A stretch of DNA of 64,000 nucleotides, taken from IMG/VR virus record IMGVR_UViG_3300043446_000566, positions 20,248 through 84,247 of that record. One strand, 5' to 3'. Within the stretch, counting starts at the first letter, position 1; every line of letters begins with the position of its first letter. Both the position numbers and the translations under genes were made by a program. Shown one piece after another: positions 9,611-63,886 of the stretch. This stretch comes from a virus. Below the pieces are notes generated by a model. It was not told the origin of the DNA. It saw only the letters and a list, made by a program, of their open reading frames with translations, and made no database searches.

Positions 9611-9618
9611 TATTTAGT
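9611..9618 (-). promoter_or_regulatory. Candidate late promoter (ACTAAATA) for the sheath gene
   Basis: ACTAAATA lies in the 61-nt intergenic gap between gp17 and gp18, 42 nt upstream of the sheath ATG. Confidence 0.65.
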
Positions 9619-54364: not shown

Positions 54365-54589
54365 TTAGAATGACAGTGTTCCTGTTCGCGGTAGTTGACG
54401 TAGATCCATCGCTTCACATTGAATCAGACTCTTGAGTGGTTCATTGATCAGCGTAGCAGCGACTTCAACTTCAAGATCATTTTCTTCACAGTATGAAGTG
54501 ATTGCGTCCATGTGATCAGTTTTTGAATCTAGCGCTCTCTGCATGATCATCATTGAAAACTTATTCTTTTCTTCTCTACTTACCATCAT
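54365..54589 (-). CDS. 33: Late transcription coactivator (T4 gp33-like)
   Basis: 74 residues from the ATG at 54589, preceded by AGAGAGGA. The pattern 'HMDAITSYCEENDLEVEVAATLINEPLKSLIQCEAMDLRQLPRTGTLSF' is the compact gp33 form of marine T4-like phages. It bridges RNA polymerase, the late sigma (gp55) and the sliding clamp at late promoters. Its presence agrees with the many NATAAATA elements. Its start overlaps the end of the SleB-like gene. Confidence 0.85.
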   Translation of the reverse strand: MMVSREEKNKFSMMIMQRALDSKTDHMDAITSYCEENDLEVEVAATLINEPLKSLIQCEAMDLRQLPRTGTLSF

Positions 54590-55202
54590 TGATCCTCTCT
54601 GAGTAAAATATATGGCGACCGATCTGAGAAACATATCTCTTGCTGTTTGCCCATGAAGGCTCTACATAGTCAGCATGAAAGTGTGTCGCGTTCCCTATTA
54701 TACCATACTTCTTTTTAGAAATCAAGATGTTTTCAGCAATGCTCTTTGACTCAAGCCAATTCTTCATTGAATTGATTGTTCTTTTAGGAGAACACACCCA
54801 TGAGAACTGGCAGATGCCGTTGTTCTTTTGATTGACCACACCGCAAACAGTTCCAGCATAGCCCTTCTTCACACGATTCATCGTCACTTCAGCAACAGCA
54901 ATCTTGCCTGCTTTGGGTTCTGTGCCAGCTTCAAAGTAGATGTTTCTTGCAAGACACTGAACTTCTTTCTGGACAGCTTGCTGCTTTGCGTATGCAACCT
55001 TATAGGTTTTCATCTGCTCATCCATCTCAGAGATGTGCGCTACCAGTTCTTGATTGACTTCTCTTTGCTTGCTGATCTCATTTTTCATTGAGACATATTG
55101 CATAGAAGGAACAACTACAATCAAAAACGTGAAGCAAAATAGTCCTCCGAACTTTAGAAAAAAGTTATGGTTCTTGTCAAAATAATTTTGTACTGCCTTC
55201 AT
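54576..55202 (-). CDS. Membrane-anchored SleB-type cell wall hydrolase (endolysin candidate)
   Basis: 208 residues from the ATG at 55202, chosen for its GGGAG site 8 nt upstream. Residues about 14-35 form one transmembrane segment (FFLKFGGLFCFTFLIVVVPS), followed by a coiled-coil linker (about 38-75). The C-terminal Hydrolase_2/SleB domain begins 'CLARNIYFEAGTEPKAGKIAVAEVTMNRV', with the family's catalytic Glu in 'FEAGTEP', and continues 'GICQFSWVCS' and 'ATHFHADYVEPSWA'. It cleaves peptidoglycan outside the inner membrane; a signal-anchor endolysin mode is plausible. It lies just downstream of the tmRNA terminator. Confidence 0.9.
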   Translation of the reverse strand: MKAVQNYFDKNHNFFLKFGGLFCFTFLIVVVPSMQYVSMKNEISKQREVNQELVAHISEMDEQMKTYKVAYAKQQAVQKEVQCLARNIYFEAGTEPKAGKIAVAEVTMNRVKKGYAGTVCGVVNQKNNGICQFSWVCSPKRTINSMKNWLESKSIAENILISKKKYGIIGNATHFHADYVEPSWANSKRYVSQIGRHIFYSERINDGK

Positions 55203-55226
55203 GTTAGTTACTCCCATTTATGCAGT

Positions 55227-55262
55227 GGAAAGAAAAGGCTGGTGGCTGTTACACCACCAACC
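55227..55262 (-). terminator. Rho-independent terminator of the tmRNA gene
   Basis: A 9-bp stem (GGTTGGTGG with CCACCAGCC, 8-nt loop) followed by TTTTCTTT on the minus strand, directly after the tmRNA coding piece. Confidence 0.85.
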
Positions 55263-55486
55263 CTGACCTTTCTGTTACCAAGCGGTCAACTCTGGTAATC
55301 CCATACTGCCTTAGGCAGCGAGAGCCATGTCGTAAACATCATCGTTTGCGTTTACTTTGTTTTGCGCGAATTACGTTCGTCACCTTTCGAGCGCACTTTG
55401 TCTATTACTTGCCCTGTCGAAACCAGTCAGCCCCGTAGAATTGGTGGAGCTGGGCGGAATCGAACCGCCGTCCAGAACACCTTTAC
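55263..55486 (-). ncRNA. ssrA: Circularly permuted two-piece tmRNA (ssrA)
   Basis: Read on the minus strand, the acceptor piece comes first (about 55486-55442). It has a T-arm GGCGG-TTCGATT-CCGCC, then CAGCTCC and a 3' ACCA ending at 55442. A 7-nt intervening segment (55441-55435) follows, then the coding piece starting GGGGCTGACTGGTTTCGACAGG at 55434. GGGGCTG pairs with CAGCTCC to form the acceptor stem. The tag reading frame is at 55349-55311: resume codon GCA, encoding ANDDVYDMALAA then TAA. The ALAA end is the usual degradation signal. The order 3' piece before 5' piece is the permuted arrangement known from alphaproteobacteria. The 5' limit abuts the stop of the MGME1-like gene. Confidence 0.95.
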
Positions 55487-56170
55487 CTAAGTGTTTACGC
55501 TGTTATCTACGTTGTCGTAGAAATTTTCTATGTATGTCTTCAGATTGTTCCTGTGGATATTTAGTTCTTCGCCCTTCACCTTCATAGTCTGACAGAAATT
55601 GGCAGCATCTACGCCGATCAATACGACAACTTGCTCAATCGGAGTACCAGTCAGTTCAGTGAACATGTCCGCATAGGCTACGCACTGCATGAAGTAGTTG
55701 CCAATGTTCTCTTTCTTCTTGAGACGATTAGATGTCTTGAAGTCGATGACAGACAGAACACCTTCATGCTCTGCAATACAGTCAACAGTGCCAGCTAGCT
55801 TTAGCTTGTGCGAATAGAGCGGAGTCTCAAGGCAATGAATGTTGTTGACCTTCTTGACCAGTTCTTCCTTCATGCGCACATACAAAGACTTCACATTCGG
55901 CATCATCTCTAGCGTAGAGACATCTTCGTTGTTCAGCAAAGTTTCAATCGCTTTGTGAACACCGCTGCCTCGAGTCGTCGCTGTGCGAGAGATCTTGTTT
56001 GCTTTCTCTTCACCAACTTTCTTGCGCCACTCAAGAATGCTTTGCTTGTTGTAGTCAGCAAGAACTGTAGTGACAGAGACATACTTCTCACCAGTAGGAG
56101 TGACGTATCGCCGCTGAGGACCATCTTCGCGCAAAAGAACGGGAAGATTATGAGGGACATGAACAAACAT
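55487..56170 (-). CDS. PD-(D/E)XK exonuclease, MGME1/Cas4-RecB-like
   Basis: 227 residues. 'YVSVTTVLADYNKQSILEWRKKVGEEKANKISRTATTRGSGVHKAIETLL' followed by 'KLAGTVDCIAEHEGVLSVIDFKTSNRLKKKENIGNYFMQCVAYADMFTELTG' is the RecB-type nuclease layout: catalytic Asp in GTVDC, then D-x-K in 'IDFKTS', then a Gln-containing helix. It probably processes DNA ends during recombination-dependent replication. It is cotranscribed with DexA upstream and abuts the tmRNA downstream. Confidence 0.9.
   Translation of the reverse strand: MFVHVPHNLPVLLREDGPQRRYVTPTGEKYVSVTTVLADYNKQSILEWRKKVGEEKANKISRTATTRGSGVHKAIETLLNNEDVSTLEMMPNVKSLYVRMKEELVKKVNNIHCLETPLYSHKLKLAGTVDCIAEHEGVLSVIDFKTSNRLKKKENIGNYFMQCVAYADMFTELTGTPIEQVVVLIGVDAANFCQTMKVKGEELNIHRNNLKTYIENFYDNVDNSVNT
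55558..55565 (-). promoter_or_regulatory. Candidate late promoter (ACTAAATA) upstream of the tmRNA
   Basis: ACTAAATA on the minus strand inside the 3' end of the MGME1-like gene, about 72 nt before the acceptor piece of the tmRNA. It could make the tmRNA a late transcript. Confidence 0.35.
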
Positions 56171-60179: not shown

Positions 60180-60319
60180 GCGCGAGGAATGTCAATAGAA
60201 TCAATCACTTACGCGGATGCTCTGGAACCGTTGGTGGAGCGGCTGGAGCGGGTCAGGCTAGACCCCTGGTATAGATGGTCTGGAGTCTGGAACGACTCCA
60301 GGAGGGGCTGGTGGAGAGT

Positions 60320-60392
60320 GGTAGCGCCCGCAGGACTTGAACCTGCAACTGTGGATTATGAGTCCACTGTGATGCCATTTCACTAAGGCGCA
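60320..60392 (-). tRNA. tRNA with CAU anticodon (Ile2 or Met)
   Basis: A cloverleaf with D-stem GTGA/TCAC, anticodon stem GTGGA/TCCAC, loop CTCATAA, T-arm GCAGG-TTCAAGT-CCTGC, and encoded CCA. The acceptor stem has a T:T mismatch at 1:72. The loop plus TTCAAGT context resembles lysidine-type tRNA-Ile2, but Met cannot be excluded. The stop codon of the 38-residue ORF lies within its 5' end. Confidence 0.85.
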
Positions 60393-60499
60393 ATTTTACT
60401 CTTGACTGGTGGCTTCTTCCCAAAGATACGGTCCCAGCTGTCATCAAACTTTTTCCTGGGAACGCTCAATGGGCGCGGCTTGCTTCCTTTGCCGCTCAT
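60383..60499 (-). CDS. Small conserved phage protein (38 residues)
   Basis: ATG at 60499 overlapping the HNH gene's TGA (ATGA). The sequence MSGKGSKPRPLSVPRKKF... with 'DDSWDRIFGKK' matches a tiny protein widely found in phages. Its last codons and stop overlap the 5' end of the CAU tRNA. Function unknown; too short for standard ORF thresholds. Confidence 0.75.
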   Translation of the reverse strand: MSGKGSKPRPLSVPRKKFDDSWDRIFGKKPPVKSKIAP

Positions 60500-61068
60500 G
60501 CTGCGTCACTCCAAACTCGTGAAGTGCGCGGAATCGAAGCCATCAGAAACTCCATCTGATCGACAAGAATCTTTCTGTTCTTCAGAAGAATCTTTTCATG
60601 AACTGTCGGTGAGTACGGAACATACAGAAGATGCTTCTTGAACTCTTCTGGTGTTCGGCTGCCCTTTCGATGATTACATGATCGGCAGGCTGTCACACAA
60701 TTTGTCCAGTGGTTTGTGCCACCGCGAGACTTCGGCAGAACATGATCGATTGTCAGATGGCGACTGTCAAACACATCACCACAGTAAGCACACATATGCC
60801 TATCGCGAGAGTACAGAGTCTGACGGTCGACGTAGTTAGTTTTAGAATTGTAGAACTTTTCGCCAAGGATCGGTCCGTTGACACCAATGATAGATGAAAT
60901 TTTGATTCTTGATCTATTGCCATGATCATTAAAACCACCGATCATTGTTCTCACGACAGTGCCTGTTTCCCAAAGAACCTTTTCTCTGGCATAGTAACAC
61001 GCCGCAATCTCATGATTGCACCAATCTTTTGGCGTTCCACTTTTATCTACAACAAGCACAAGCGACAC
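60496..61068 (-). CDS. HNH endonuclease
   Basis: 190 residues starting at GTG 61068 with AAGGAG 6 nt upstream. The HNH fold with zinc ligands is 'CAYCGDVFDSRHLTIDHVLPKSRGGTNHWTNCVTACRSCNHRKGSRTPEEF' (residues about 92-145; His in 'IDHV', Asn in 'TNHWTNCV', C-x2-C pairs). The N-terminal 'LVLVVDKSGTPKDWCNHEIAACYYAREKVLWE' is typical of the conserved T4-like HNH protein often found near tRNA or DNA-metabolism genes. It may be a housekeeping phage nuclease rather than a mobile element. Confidence 0.92.
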   Translation of the reverse strand: MSLVLVVDKSGTPKDWCNHEIAACYYAREKVLWETGTVVRTMIGGFNDHGNRSRIKISSIIGVNGPILGEKFYNSKTNYVDRQTLYSRDRHMCAYCGDVFDSRHLTIDHVLPKSRGGTNHWTNCVTACRSCNHRKGSRTPEEFKKHLLYVPYSPTVHEKILLKNRKILVDQMEFLMASIPRTSRVWSDAA

Positions 61069-61089
61069 GATATTCTCCTTAGCATAAAT

Positions 61090-61177
61090 TGGCGGAAGCG
61101 GTGAGATTCGAACTCACGGACCTATTAGAGCCTGCAGTTTTCAAGACTGCTGGATTAAACCACTCTCCCACACTTCC
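61090..61177 (-). tRNA. tRNA-Ser(UGA)
   Basis: GGAAGTG/CGCTTCC acceptor, anticodon loop CTTGAAA on stem GCAGT/ACTGC, long variable arm, G73 and encoded CCA. Confidence 0.95.
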
Positions 61178-61189
61178 AATTGTATATAG

Positions 61190-61363
61190 TCAGTCAACTG
61201 GTCCCCATTTACCTACGGGACATGATGTAGTCTTCCATTGTGTTTTCAGCGCAAGAATACATCCGCACTTACTGCAAACACCTATCTTATTGTGTTCGCA
61301 GATACGGCAATGTGCAAGCCGTCTATCTTTATCAACAGCGCTAGCGATTCTATCGTCTAACAT
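61190..61363 (-). CDS. Small zinc-ribbon protein (57 residues)
   Basis: ATG at 61363 with AGGA 6-7 nt upstream, stop TGA at 61190. The Cys-rich core 'HCRICEHNKIGVCSKCGCILALK' then 'SCPVGKWGP' is a four-to-six Cys zinc ribbon, a small family common in phages. It is nested between tRNA-Ser(UGA) and tRNA-Gly(UCC), which it nearly fills. Function unknown. Confidence 0.75.
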   Translation of the reverse strand: MLDDRIASAVDKDRRLAHCRICEHNKIGVCSKCGCILALKTQWKTTSCPVGKWGPVD

Positions 61364-61380
61364 ATTTGTTCCTAAAAGGT

Positions 61381-61454
61381 TGGAGCAGAGTACGGGAGTC
61401 GAACCCGTCTGACTAGCTTGGAAGGCTAGGACACGACCGCTATGCCAACTCTGC
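61381..61454 (-). tRNA. tRNA-Gly(UCC)
   Basis: GCAGAGT acceptor, anticodon stem CTAGC/GCTAG with loop CTTCCAA, T-arm GACGGG-TTCGACT, encoded CCA. Confidence 0.95.
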
Positions 61455-61460
61455 GTTATC

Positions 61461-61538
61461 TGGTACCCGCAGCGAGATTCGAACTCGCACTTTACAGATT
61501 TTAAGTCTGTTGCCTGCTGCCGATTGGGCTATGCGGGC
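61461..61538 (-). tRNA. tRNA-Leu(UAA) with a short variable loop
   Basis: Acceptor GCCCGCA/TGCGGGT, anticodon stem ACAGA/TCTGT, loop CTTAAAA (anticodon UAA), variable loop of only 5 nt (AAAGT), T-arm GCGAG-TTCGAAT-CTCGC, A73 and encoded CCA. Leu tRNAs normally have a long variable arm. Confidence 0.88.
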
Positions 61539-61543
61539 AAAAT

Positions 61544-61620
<77 letters not shown>

Positions 61621-61648
61621 ATAATTCTATATATTACGCTTCAACAAA

Positions 61649-61743
61649 TGGTACCCCTGGCAGGATTCGAACCTGCGCTATGCTCTAATCTGGAGCCAAT
61701 GCCACTTTATAAGGGTGGTGTTCTACCGCTAAACTACAGGGGC
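61649..61743 (-). tRNA. tRNA with UAU anticodon (Ile) carrying a long variable arm
   Basis: Acceptor GCCCCTG/CAGGGGT, D-stem GTTT/GAAC, anticodon stem CCACC/AGTGG (C:A at 31:39), loop CTTATAA. The variable arm of about 25 nt contains a GCTC-CAGATTA-GAGC hairpin. T-arm GCAGG-TTCGAAT-CCTGC, encoded CCA. A class II arm is not expected on tRNA-Ile. Confidence 0.85.
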
Positions 61744-61749
61744 GCAAAA

Positions 61750-61835
61750 TGGCGGAAGGCAGTGGACTCGAACCACATCCTCGAAAAGACGTTTCGTTTA
61801 GCAAACGAACGTGAACCCTGTTCACATTACCTTCC
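61750..61835 (-). tRNA. tRNA-Ser(GCU)
   Basis: Acceptor GGAAGGT/GCCTTCC, anticodon stem TTCGT/ACGAA with loop TTGCTAA, long variable arm, G73, encoded CCA. Confidence 0.95.
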
Positions 61836-61839
61836 TAAT

Positions 61840-61914
61840 TGGTGCGCCTACCAGGACTCGAACCTGGACCAAAGGTTTAGAAGACCCTTATGATTTCCGT
61901 TTCACCATAGGCGC
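61840..61914 (-). tRNA. tRNA-Arg(UCU)
   Basis: GCGCCTA acceptor, anticodon loop CTTCTAA on stem AGGGT/ACCTT, T-arm CCAGG-TTCGAGT-CCTGG, encoded CCA. Confidence 0.95.
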
Positions 61915-61921
61915 AATAAAC

Positions 61922-61995
61922 TGGTGCTTCTTGATGGTTACGCTCCAACGTCTCTAAATTATCAGTTTAGGGTTCTGCTATTGAACTAAAGAAGC
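61922..61995 (-). tRNA. tRNA-Ile(GAU) with non-canonical T-loop
   Basis: Perfect acceptor GCTTCTT/AAGAAGC, anticodon stem CTAAA/TTTAG with loop CTGATAA, encoded CCA. The T-arm is GTTGG-AGCGTAA-CCATC, lacking T54-T55 and with one stem mismatch. Confidence 0.85.
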
Positions 61996-62000
61996 AAACT

Positions 62001-62077
62001 TGGGGTGACAGGTCGGATTCGAACCGACGATTACGACTTTCACAGAGTCGGGACTTTGGCCACTTGTCAACTGCCAC
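62001..62077 (-). tRNA. tRNA-His(GUG)
   Basis: Acceptor GTGGCAG/CTGTCAC, C73, anticodon stem CGACT/AGTCG with loop CTGTGAA, T-arm GTCGG-TTCGAAT-CCGAC, encoded CCA. The base before G1 is T, so the usual encoded G-1 opposite C73 is absent. Confidence 0.93.
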
Positions 62078-62083
62078 ATAAAT

Positions 62084-62158
62084 TGGCGCCCTTGAGAGGA
62101 CTCGAACCCCTAATACAACGTCCGTAGCGTAGCGTGATGTCCATTTCACTACAAGGGC
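62084..62158 (-). tRNA. tRNA-Arg(ACG)
   Basis: GCCCTTG acceptor, D-stem GTGA/TCAC, anticodon stem CTACG/CGTTG (one T:T mismatch) with loop CTACGGA, T-arm AGGGG-TTCGAGT-CCTCT, encoded CCA. Decoding would rely on inosine at position 34. Confidence 0.9.
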
Positions 62159-62162
62159 AAAT

Positions 62163-62237
62163 TGGTGCCAAGTGTTGGTATCGCGCCAACCTATTCTGCT
62201 CTTCAGGCAGGTGCTAATCTATCTCAGCTAACTTGGC
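62163..62237 (-). tRNA. tRNA-Phe(GAA) with non-canonical T-loop
   Basis: Acceptor GCCAAGT/ACTTGGC, anticodon loop CTGAAGA, encoded CCA. The T-arm is GTTGG-CGCGATA-CCAAC: C54 and G55 instead of T54-T55. The 117 nt that follow to tRNA-Cys hold no supported gene (see findings for a Cys-rich 20-codon frame at 62264-62326). Confidence 0.88.
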
Positions 62238-62354
62238 AAATTCTTATGCAGGACGGACCTTTGTTACCTGCCTAGTTGCGTACGCCAACAACCGTGCCGA
62301 CAGTTATCGCAATGTGGAAGGGTAATTACTCCTATTCATTGCTTTCGTCGAAAC

Positions 62355-62429
62355 TGGAGTTGCGGACTGGACTCGCACCAGCATAGAAGAGTTTTGCAGA
62401 CTCTCGCCTCACTTTTCAGCCACCGCAAC
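62355..62429 (-). tRNA. tRNA-Cys(GCA) with G55 in the T-loop
   Basis: Acceptor GTTGCGG/CCGCAAC with T73 (typical of Cys), anticodon stem AGAGT/ACTCT with loop CTGCAAA, encoded CCA. The T-loop is TGCGAGT (G55 instead of T55). Confidence 0.92.
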
Positions 62430-62439
62430 AAAATAAAAT

Positions 62440-62521
62440 GAAACGCATTAGCCAGAGTCTTAATAAGGAGCTACTCTCTTTTAATTCTAGGCATTCTCCA
62501 AGCCAGATACTAATGTATTTC
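62440..62521 (-). ncRNA. Candidate structured small RNA in the tRNA cluster
   Basis: This 82-nt segment between tRNA-Met and tRNA-Cys is closed by a 12-position terminal stem, 62510-62521 (GAAATACATTAG) with 62440-62451 (CTAATGCGTTTC), with 11 pairs. An inner AGAGT/ACTCT helix is possible. It is followed by ATTTTATTTT. It lacks tRNA arms, an anticodon or a CCA, and has no ORF. It is comparable in position to the unassigned stable RNAs C and D of the T4 tRNA cluster. Confidence 0.45.
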
Positions 62522-62525
62522 AAAA

Positions 62526-62601
62526 TGGTAGCAGTGATCAGACTCGAACTGATGATAAACTCCGTATGAAGGAGGTGCATTAGCCGCTATGCTACACTGC
62601 T
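62526..62601 (-). tRNA. Second tRNA with CAU anticodon (Met or Ile2)
   Basis: Acceptor AGCAGTG/CACTGCT, D-stem GCAT/ATGC, anticodon loop TTCATAC on stem CCTCC/GGAGT (27:43 mismatched), T-arm ATCAG-TTCGAGT-CTGAT, encoded CCA. C38 in the anticodon loop is unusual. Confidence 0.85.
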
Positions 62602-62607
62602 ATAAAA

Positions 62608-62692
62608 TGGTGGGTGCGATAGGATTCGAACCTATTAGACCTAGATGGCTGATTTACAGTCAGCTGCGACCCTCCAACTTCGCCGCACACCC
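62608..62692 (-). tRNA. tRNA-Tyr(GUA)
   Basis: GGGTGTG acceptor, anticodon stem GCTGA/TCAGC with loop CTGTAAA, long variable arm, A73, encoded CCA. Confidence 0.95.
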
Positions 62693-62693
62693 A

Positions 62694-62767
62694 TGGCTGA
62701 GGGACGTGGATTCGAACCACGATAGACGGATTCAAAGTCCGTCGTCCTGCCGTTAGACGATCCCTCA
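62694..62767 (-). tRNA. tRNA-Gln(UUG)
   Basis: TGAGGGA acceptor with T1 typical of Gln, anticodon stem ACGGA/TCCGT with loop CTTTGAA, G73, encoded CCA. Confidence 0.95.
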
Positions 62768-62775
62768 ATAAAACT

Positions 62776-62849
62776 TGGAGCGAGTAGCGGGAATCGAACC
62801 CGCACGATGACCTTGGCAAGGTCACAGGCAACCATTACATCATACTCGC
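62776..62849 (-). tRNA. tRNA-Gly(GCC)
   Basis: GCGAGTA acceptor, anticodon stem TGACC/GGTCA with loop TTGCCAA, T-arm GCGGG-TTCGATT-CCCGC, encoded CCA. Confidence 0.95.
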
Positions 62850-62853
62850 ATAT

Positions 62854-62929
62854 TGGTGCACGGTGTAGGACTCGAACCTACATAATTCACCTTGTAAAAG
62901 TGACGCTTGACCTCTCAGACCAACCGTGC
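62854..62929 (-). tRNA. tRNA-Val(UAC)
   Basis: GCACGGT acceptor, anticodon stem TCACT/GGTGA with loop TTTACAA, T-arm GTAGG-TTCGAGT-CCTAC, encoded CCA. The first 15 nt also encode the last residues and stop of the HNH gene. Confidence 0.95.
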
Positions 62930-63439
62930 TTTGTATTCCCTAAGATACGCATTCCTTTTCGTATCTTTTCTGTATCTAGAACCTCGACCCTTTGACCCAT
63001 AAGTTTCAGTTTGCGTATGGCAATTTGGGCATAAAATTCTAAGATTACTTAGTTGATTGTTATCGCTATCTCCGTCAATATGATCCATTTGTAGAGTCAG
63101 CGGTTTATCATTCCACGTATCGCCTATACCGCAAGATTCACATTTGAAATTAGATTTCTCAAGCAGATATTGCTTTAGTGATCCATCCCCAACTTTCTGT
63201 CCAGATTCAATTTTAGATACAGTAACTTTTCTAGCAGCTTCGCCAAAACATTCTAACGAACAATATTTGTTCGTACTGCTTTTGTTGTATGGAAACATTG
63301 TTCCACAGTTTCCGCATTCATATTCTGTAGTGATACGTTTTCTACTTTTCGTATAACGCCCACCCTCTTTATGAATAGATTTATGTCCATTCAGTCCTCT
63401 GAATGAATCAAATCCTTTACCGCAAATATCACAGTCCAT
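62915..63439 (-). CDS. HNH homing endonuclease inserted in the tRNA cluster
   Basis: 174 residues from the ATG at 63439 (GAGG 9 nt upstream). An N-terminal C2H2-like finger (CDICGKGFDSFRGLNGHKSIH) and a second Cys4 ribbon (YECGNCGTMFPYNKSSTNKYCSLECFG) precede the HNH core 'CESCGIGDTWNDKPLTLQMDHIDGDSDNNQLSNLRILCPNCHTQTETYGSKGRG'. The layout is that of free-standing phage HNH homing endonucleases. Its 5' side touches a truncated tRNA, and its 3' end overlaps tRNA-Val by 15 nt, so it marks an insertion. A candidate late promoter lies 36 nt upstream. Confidence 0.93.
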   Translation of the reverse strand: MDCDICGKGFDSFRGLNGHKSIHKEGGRYTKSRKRITTEYECGNCGTMFPYNKSSTNKYCSLECFGEAARKVTVSKIESGQKVGDGSLKQYLLEKSNFKCESCGIGDTWNDKPLTLQMDHIDGDSDNNQLSNLRILCPNCHTQTETYGSKGRGSRYRKDTKRNAYLREYKARLV

Positions 63440-63474
63440 TTCAGTTATCCTCAAATCTAGCTGAATAGTATACC

Positions 63475-63482
63475 TATTTAGT
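63475..63482 (-). promoter_or_regulatory. Candidate late promoter (ACTAAATA) for the HNH endonuclease
   Basis: ACTAAATA on the minus strand between the tRNA remnant and the HNH gene, 36 nt upstream of its ATG. Late promoters ahead of homing endonuclease genes are known in T4. Confidence 0.6.
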
Positions 63483-63490
63483 ATTTTTGA

Positions 63491-63516
63491 GTGTTCTACC
63501 GCTGAGTTAATCCCGC
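63491..63516 (-). pseudogene. tRNA remnant: 5' acceptor and D-arm only
   Basis: The minus strand reads like tRNA positions 1-26 (GCGGGAT, then a D-loop AGCGGTA with GAAC), then loses tRNA character. No anticodon, T-arm or CCA counterpart follows before the HNH gene or before tRNA-Val. It appears to have been truncated by the endonuclease insertion. Confidence 0.6.
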
Positions 63517-63718
63517 AAATAAATTTGTTGTTTGCACTATCTGCTGCGTCTCATCCAACAGAGGTCATGACGGTGTTGGCTTTCTTTTGGCGCAGTTAGT
63601 CGGGCTTTACGATCACCCATCGCTTACAAACAACAAAAAAGGTGCAGGGCTTTCACCTGCTGCTAATCAAACCTTGCGGTGATTAATCTGCCGCCTCTTT
63701 ATATTCAGCGGACTTATA
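63517..63718 (-). other. Gene-poor structured interval in the tRNA cluster
   Basis: About 200 nt between tRNA-Ala and the tRNA remnant. Hairpins TAATCA...TGATTA (10-nt loop) and GCAGG...CCTGC, followed by ACC and six T, could be a small RNA with terminator (about 63635-63700). A 27-codon basic frame starts at ATG 63620 and ends at 63537, but has no convincing ribosome-binding site. Confidence 0.4.
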
Positions 63719-63796
63719 TGGTGGAGATAGTCGGATTCGAACCGACCTGTGTCCTGCGTGCAAGGCAGGTGTTCACCCCTAGCAAACCCTATCCCC
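63719..63796 (-). tRNA. tRNA-Ala(UGC)
   Basis: Acceptor GGGGATA/TATCTCC, anticodon stem CCTGC/GCAGG with loop CTTGCAC, A73, encoded CCA. Confidence 0.94.
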
Positions 63797-63801
63797 AAAA
63801 T

Positions 63802-63886
63802 TGGCTGCCTCTGTTGGACTCGAACCAACAATGTCTTTCGACGACGGATTAACAGTCCGTTGCATTACCATTCTGCGCAAGAGGCA
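63802..63886 (-). tRNA. tRNA-Asn(GUU) carrying an extended variable arm
   Basis: Acceptor TGCCTCT/AGAGGCA with U1:A72 and G73 as in bacterial Asn tRNAs, anticodon stem ACGGA/TCCGT with loop CTGTTAA, T-arm GTTGG-TTCGAGT-CCAAC, encoded CCA. The variable region is about 14 nt with a GTC-GAAA-GAC hairpin, unusual for Asn. Confidence 0.88.

Follow-up and report, generated by a model that had tools for sequence, protein, structure and literature searches.

The window analyzed here, a 64,000-nt stretch of DNA from an uncultured virus, contains an interval that a first-pass annotation read as a circularly permuted tmRNA (ssrA) gene, which raises the questions of what type of tmRNA this is, whether the gene works, and what it would do for a phage. 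The source record (84,247 bp) is a genome fragment that, judged by its structural proteins, belongs to a T4-like myophage; its portal protein is up to about 53% identical to those of DLP_6, Mosig, and cyanophages. The gene is an intact permuted ssrA of the betaproteobacterial type. The elements referred to below are as follows (coordinates are those of the window).

55558-55564, minus strand: CTAAATA, candidate T4-like late-promoter -10 element, inside the end of the exonuclease ORF (positional enrichment)
55487-56170, minus strand: upstream gene for a PD-(D/E)XK-type exonuclease (phrog_298, 5e-68)
55442-55501, minus strand, 5' end approximate: acceptor piece, the tRNA-like 3' half (RF04321, ARAGORN 3' tRNA domain, covariation)
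55435-55441, minus strand: 7-nt spacer ATTCTAC between the two pieces, whose removal is predicted (sequence reading)
55264-55434, minus strand, 3' end approximate: coding piece (RF04321 and RF01850 matches, covariation)
55311-55349, minus strand: tag frame ANDDVYDMALAA plus TAA, GCA...GCC TAA (ARAGORN, synonymous codon changes in relatives)
about 55228-55263, minus strand: intrinsic terminator, hairpin and U-run (fold energy against shuffles)
54576-55217, minus strand: endolysin-like gene just past the terminator (phrog_938, 1.9e-22), which adjoins the tmRNA gene in relatives
54365-54634, minus strand: gene for a gp33-like late-transcription coactivator, used as a locus marker (phrog_254; found by tblastn in Melnitz and Mosig)

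Two programs identify the gene. ARAGORN calls one permuted tmRNA in the window ("tmRNA*"; minus strand, 55220-55534) with tag ANDDVYDMALAA, and RF04321 (tmRNA_permuted) matches at 55501-55311 over its full model (1-213) with 139.8 bits (gathering score, 47); a chance origin of the match is excluded. A phage-borne permuted tmRNA was therefore correctly recognized from the letters alone. The alpha-tmRNA model of Infernal, proposed as a check together with the permuted mode of ARAGORN, also matches, but RF01849 (alpha_tmRNA; 77.2 bits, cut-off 50) falls below RF01850 (beta_tmRNA), which is the best within the clan (120.6 bits, gathering score 84). On these scores we assign the tmRNA to the beta-type and reject the alpha-type. 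The gene occupies 55228-55501 of the minus strand, a strand not given before; the interval 55263-55486 first proposed is too short at both ends, lacking the 5' portion of the acceptor piece as well as the U-run of the terminator.

In the order expected of a permuted tmRNA, the acceptor piece precedes the coding piece. The former holds one strand of an inter-piece helix, the T-arm, CAGCTCC, and an encoded ACCA; the latter runs from GGGGCTG through the D-region ACTGGTTTCGACAGGG, the partner strand of the inter-piece helix, a hairpin, and the tag to a 3' pseudoknot-like region. Read by eye, the acceptor stem pairs completely across the spacer (CAGCUCC/GGGGCUG), and G3:U70, the alanine identity pair, is present on direct reading of the sequence. 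The tag frame (55349-55311) is clean, with a hydrophobic AA end followed by its stop, and the spacer (55441-55435) is 7 nt. The order of the two halves, the acceptor-stem pairing, the tag frame, and the 7-nt spacer were described accurately in the first-pass annotation.

The length of the spacer, by contrast, is not the puzzle for processing that it was thought to be. In Rhodocyclales (Accumulibacter and Dechloromonas), permuted copies have spacers of 3–6 nt, in a search deliberately confined to short ones; spacers of 25, 30, and 43 nt occur in further permuted copies from bacteria. Across 56 viral and phage copies, found mostly with search patterns whose reach is limited to spacers of at most about 30 nt, lengths range from 4 to 142 nt and are mostly 4–8 nt; phages S-CAM1, S-SSM7, and BUCTxx99 have 4 nt. 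We dropped the idea that a 7-nt spacer is unique, since Rhodocyclales bacteria and phages often have 3–8 nt. Because spacers at the shared phage locus alone range from 4 to 142 nt, their length is at most loosely constrained. RNase P and tRNase Z have been proposed to process two-piece tmRNAs (PMC3985003), and RNase P plus 3' trimming would suffice here.

The gene is flanked by a candidate late promoter and a terminator. The terminator, rightly described as strong, folds at -22.2 kcal/mol (z -4.8), a value that none of 200 shuffles reached. A late-promoter motif had been placed about 70 nt upstream, and CTAAATA lies ∼63 nt ahead of the covariance-model start. The minus strand of the window holds 13 copies of this heptamer, the plus strand only one. 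Seven of the 13 minus-strand sites are 10–90 nt upstream of minus-strand gene starts, where 6% are expected (binomial p 4e-6, an approximate value because the gene list was hand-chosen from the ORF list), and CTAAATA ranks top among 105 heptamers of equal composition in the same positional test. The broader pattern [CT][AT]AAATA shows no overall excess (21 seen, about 23 expected); enrichment is confined to the position-specific test of CTAAATA. We consider CTAAATA likely to be a late-promoter element of this phage, alongside ATAAATA. Relatives have a similar motif ahead of the tmRNA gene, at varying distance. Other minus-strand sites in the window include those at 9617, 14347, 16170, 22253, 41210, 47879, and 63481.

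The location of the gene is conserved. On the minus strand, the order of genes is PhoH, exonucleases, tmRNA, endolysin, gp33-like late coactivator, gp59 helicase loader, and gp32. An orthologue of the exonuclease is upstream of the tmRNA gene in many viral contigs and in phages Melnitz and Mosig, which also have counterparts of gp33 and gp59, and the position between a PD-(D/E)XK nuclease and gp33/gp59 identifies a Melnitz/Mosig-type ssrA locus. The neighborhood is common to viral contigs with short spacers and recurs at lower identity in a second group with spacers of 20–28 nt. The exonuclease gene of the window runs into the tmRNA gene: its final codons (SVNT-stop) share sequence with the 5' strand of the acceptor piece. 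A large tRNA array is located elsewhere in the window (60319-63886), with 18 tRNAs called by ARAGORN and two further Rfam tRNA matches absent from that list (61925-61995 and 62166-62237).

Conservation of structure was assessed in an alignment of 10 short-spacer copies, one from the window and nine from its viral relatives, with 36 consensus pairs. Across the ten copies, 98.1% of pair cells are kept, even though MAFFT offsets the acceptor stem of the window by one base (spacer +1, junction -1) and so has it falsely counted as partly unpaired. Both sides have changed in at least one copy at 15 of the 36 pairs, and none of 500 shuffles reached such pairing and covariation; when partners were slid by one to three bases, pairing fell below 53%. 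The paired changes are in the inter-piece helix, the acceptor stem, and the hairpin. Because pairs changed in compensation and the ends of the tag were kept while codons changed synonymously, the tmRNA is, on evolutionary evidence, functional, a working gene and not a remnant. Over the core, it is 82% identical to the copy in viral contig L016, which is among its nearest relatives. In a tree of about 240 columns, the window joins the short-spacer viral copies weakly (79/49).

SmpB was sought in the 84-kb fragment and in 27 viral contigs, and SspB in 19 records, among them the complete genomes of Melnitz, Mosig, DLP_6, and BUCTxx99. Neither gene was found, so host factors would be needed. Scarcity of ssrA in the host, once offered as a reason for carrying the gene, is unsupported because nearly all bacteria carry tmRNA (PMC11915505). 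We instead suggest, with a probability of roughly 85% for the explanation as a whole, that the intact beta-type permuted ssrA tops up host trans-translation late in infection. Transcripts started at the late promoter, and others continuing from the exonuclease gene, would stop at the terminator and form the precursor. RNase P would cleave ahead of GGGG, leaving a few nucleotides over at the 3' end, and host 3' nucleases would trim the 7-nt spacer back to CCA, while pairing in the acceptor stem and in the long inter-piece helix, which covaries, would hold the two pieces together. Host AlaRS would then charge the RNA with alanine via G3:U70, and host SmpB and EF-Tu would deliver it to ribosomes stuck on broken mRNAs, where tag ANDDVYDMALAA would be added and the product would go to ClpXP-type proteases. 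The phage tmRNA would thus supplement the trans-translation of the host.

The tag leaves room for another role. It is intact and degron-like, and its length is 12 aa; 22 of the 28 different tags from phages are longer than 10 aa, whereas all 13 sampled bacterial tags (same order and Rhodocyclales) are exactly 10 aa. In two groups of syntenic viruses, the AND start and the [LM]AA end are kept, the middle varies, and codons change synonymously, and in many phage tags, extra residues lie between a kept AND..[YF] and a kept [LMIV]AA. In E. coli, AND..Y/F is the adaptor-binding part of the tag. The charged phage tmRNA could accordingly compete for entry into ribosomes, with the altered tag changing which proteins are tagged or what becomes of them, for instance through a stronger adaptor-dependent degradation that recycles host protein and that host tmRNA does not provide. 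Authors of the Melnitz study have proposed selective tagging of host proteins (PMC9004378). We nevertheless consider this diversion unlikely, in part because some syntenic phages have 10-aa tags. It is similarly doubtful that phages rebuild the tag by placing two to four or more residues between AND..Y/F and LAA, the latter taken as the ClpX-binding part, such that host adaptor and protease handle the products differently. Tags of alphaproteobacteria are naturally longer, and ancestry may be the simpler reading of length in phages. That the tag is tuned to infection, as first speculated, is possible. Predicted tags of 18–31 aa occur in seven viral permuted tmRNAs (L112, L121, L122, L124, L129, L067, and L069), with examples such as ANDESYTEDFEEEFALAA and the tag of cyanophage S-SSM7, which has a VTA end.

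Far less probable than diversion is that the gene is a functionless passenger, a fragment of a host gene from imprecise excision or the remnant of an attachment site. tmRNA genes are common integration sites (PMC11915505), but this one is complete, has its own terminator, and sits at a conserved place, amid genes for replication and late regulation in T4-like phages, with no integrase among the genes examined; the compensatory changes across viral relatives already largely refute a passenger. A misidentified tRNA-like structure or chance frame is refuted, because the weak tRNA-domain matches that do occur in other genomes, those with standard tmRNAs, score about 30–44 bits, a fraction of the full-model RF04321 score.

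In the survey of the Melnitz study, 402 of 18,146 phages bore tmRNA, and 53 of 133 unique structures were predicted to be two-piece, 50 of these 53 being marine or aquatic (PMC9004378); in the tmRNA database, 79 entries are from phages and 11,946 genes are permuted (PMC11915505). Permuted tmRNAs were thus already known in phages (PMC9004378), and the window adds another. Methylophilales phage Melnitz and Pelagibacter phage Mosig (PMC9004378) are, like the phage in the window, T4-like (Kyanoviridae) and share the order nuclease, tmRNA, gp33. They differ in that their tmRNAs are alpha-type (RF01849 best), their spacers are 142 nt and 44 nt, respectively, the endolysin gene is not between tmRNA and gp33, and, in Melnitz, a glutamine riboswitch match is just 3' of the tmRNA. 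The Melnitz spacer is the longest in our sample (tmRNA at L109 2740-3202). Type of tmRNA therefore differs by phage lineage at a conserved locus, perhaps through replacement in place.

The nearest relatives are uncultured T4-like viral contigs (L012-L022, L024, and L026-L028) with the same gene neighbors. Their spacers are 4–6 nt, and they have tags such as ANDDVYEMALAA, several being identical to ANDDVYDMALAA of the window. Their acceptor stem is usually CUUCUCC/GGGGAAG in place of CAGCUCC/GGGGCUG, and in several, about 0.5–1.2 kb separates the exonuclease from the tmRNA gene, which in the window abut directly. Beta_tmRNAs (RF01850) of Rhodocyclales are permuted and short-spaced as in the window, but their tags are 10 aa and ANDERFALAA-like. 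In a Pseudogulbenkiania MAG (L049 and L078, the same genome), a standard tmRNA (tag ANDETFAVAA) accompanies a permuted one (L049 6613-6925, minus strand) that has an odd tag, ANFDIYDVQHVA, with an HVA end, and bacterial-looking neighbor genes; it may be a mobile element, a second copy, or a binning error.

Stenotrophomonas phages BUCTxx99 (spacer of 4 nt, tag ANDDVYVVALAA) and DLP_6 also have permuted tmRNAs, distant in sequence and with different neighbors. These are unannotated in their records (DLP_6, KU682439.2, L066 3832-4175; BUCTxx99, OR529408.1, L068 2941-3266), and a literature search on DLP6 and tmRNA found no reports. Stenotrophomonas itself has a one-piece tmRNA, which would make for a mismatch between these phages and their host. 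The beta-type structure of the window tmRNA hints at a betaproteobacterial host, but such a clue is unreliable because Stenotrophomonas phages bear permuted tmRNAs, that of DLP_6 being beta-type. The gene in the window and its uncultured relatives are a well-supported addition to phage-encoded two-piece tmRNAs, in which one phage locus hosts spacers of widely different length, and their variable tags offer ready-made material for finding out whether tagged proteins are redirected by phages.
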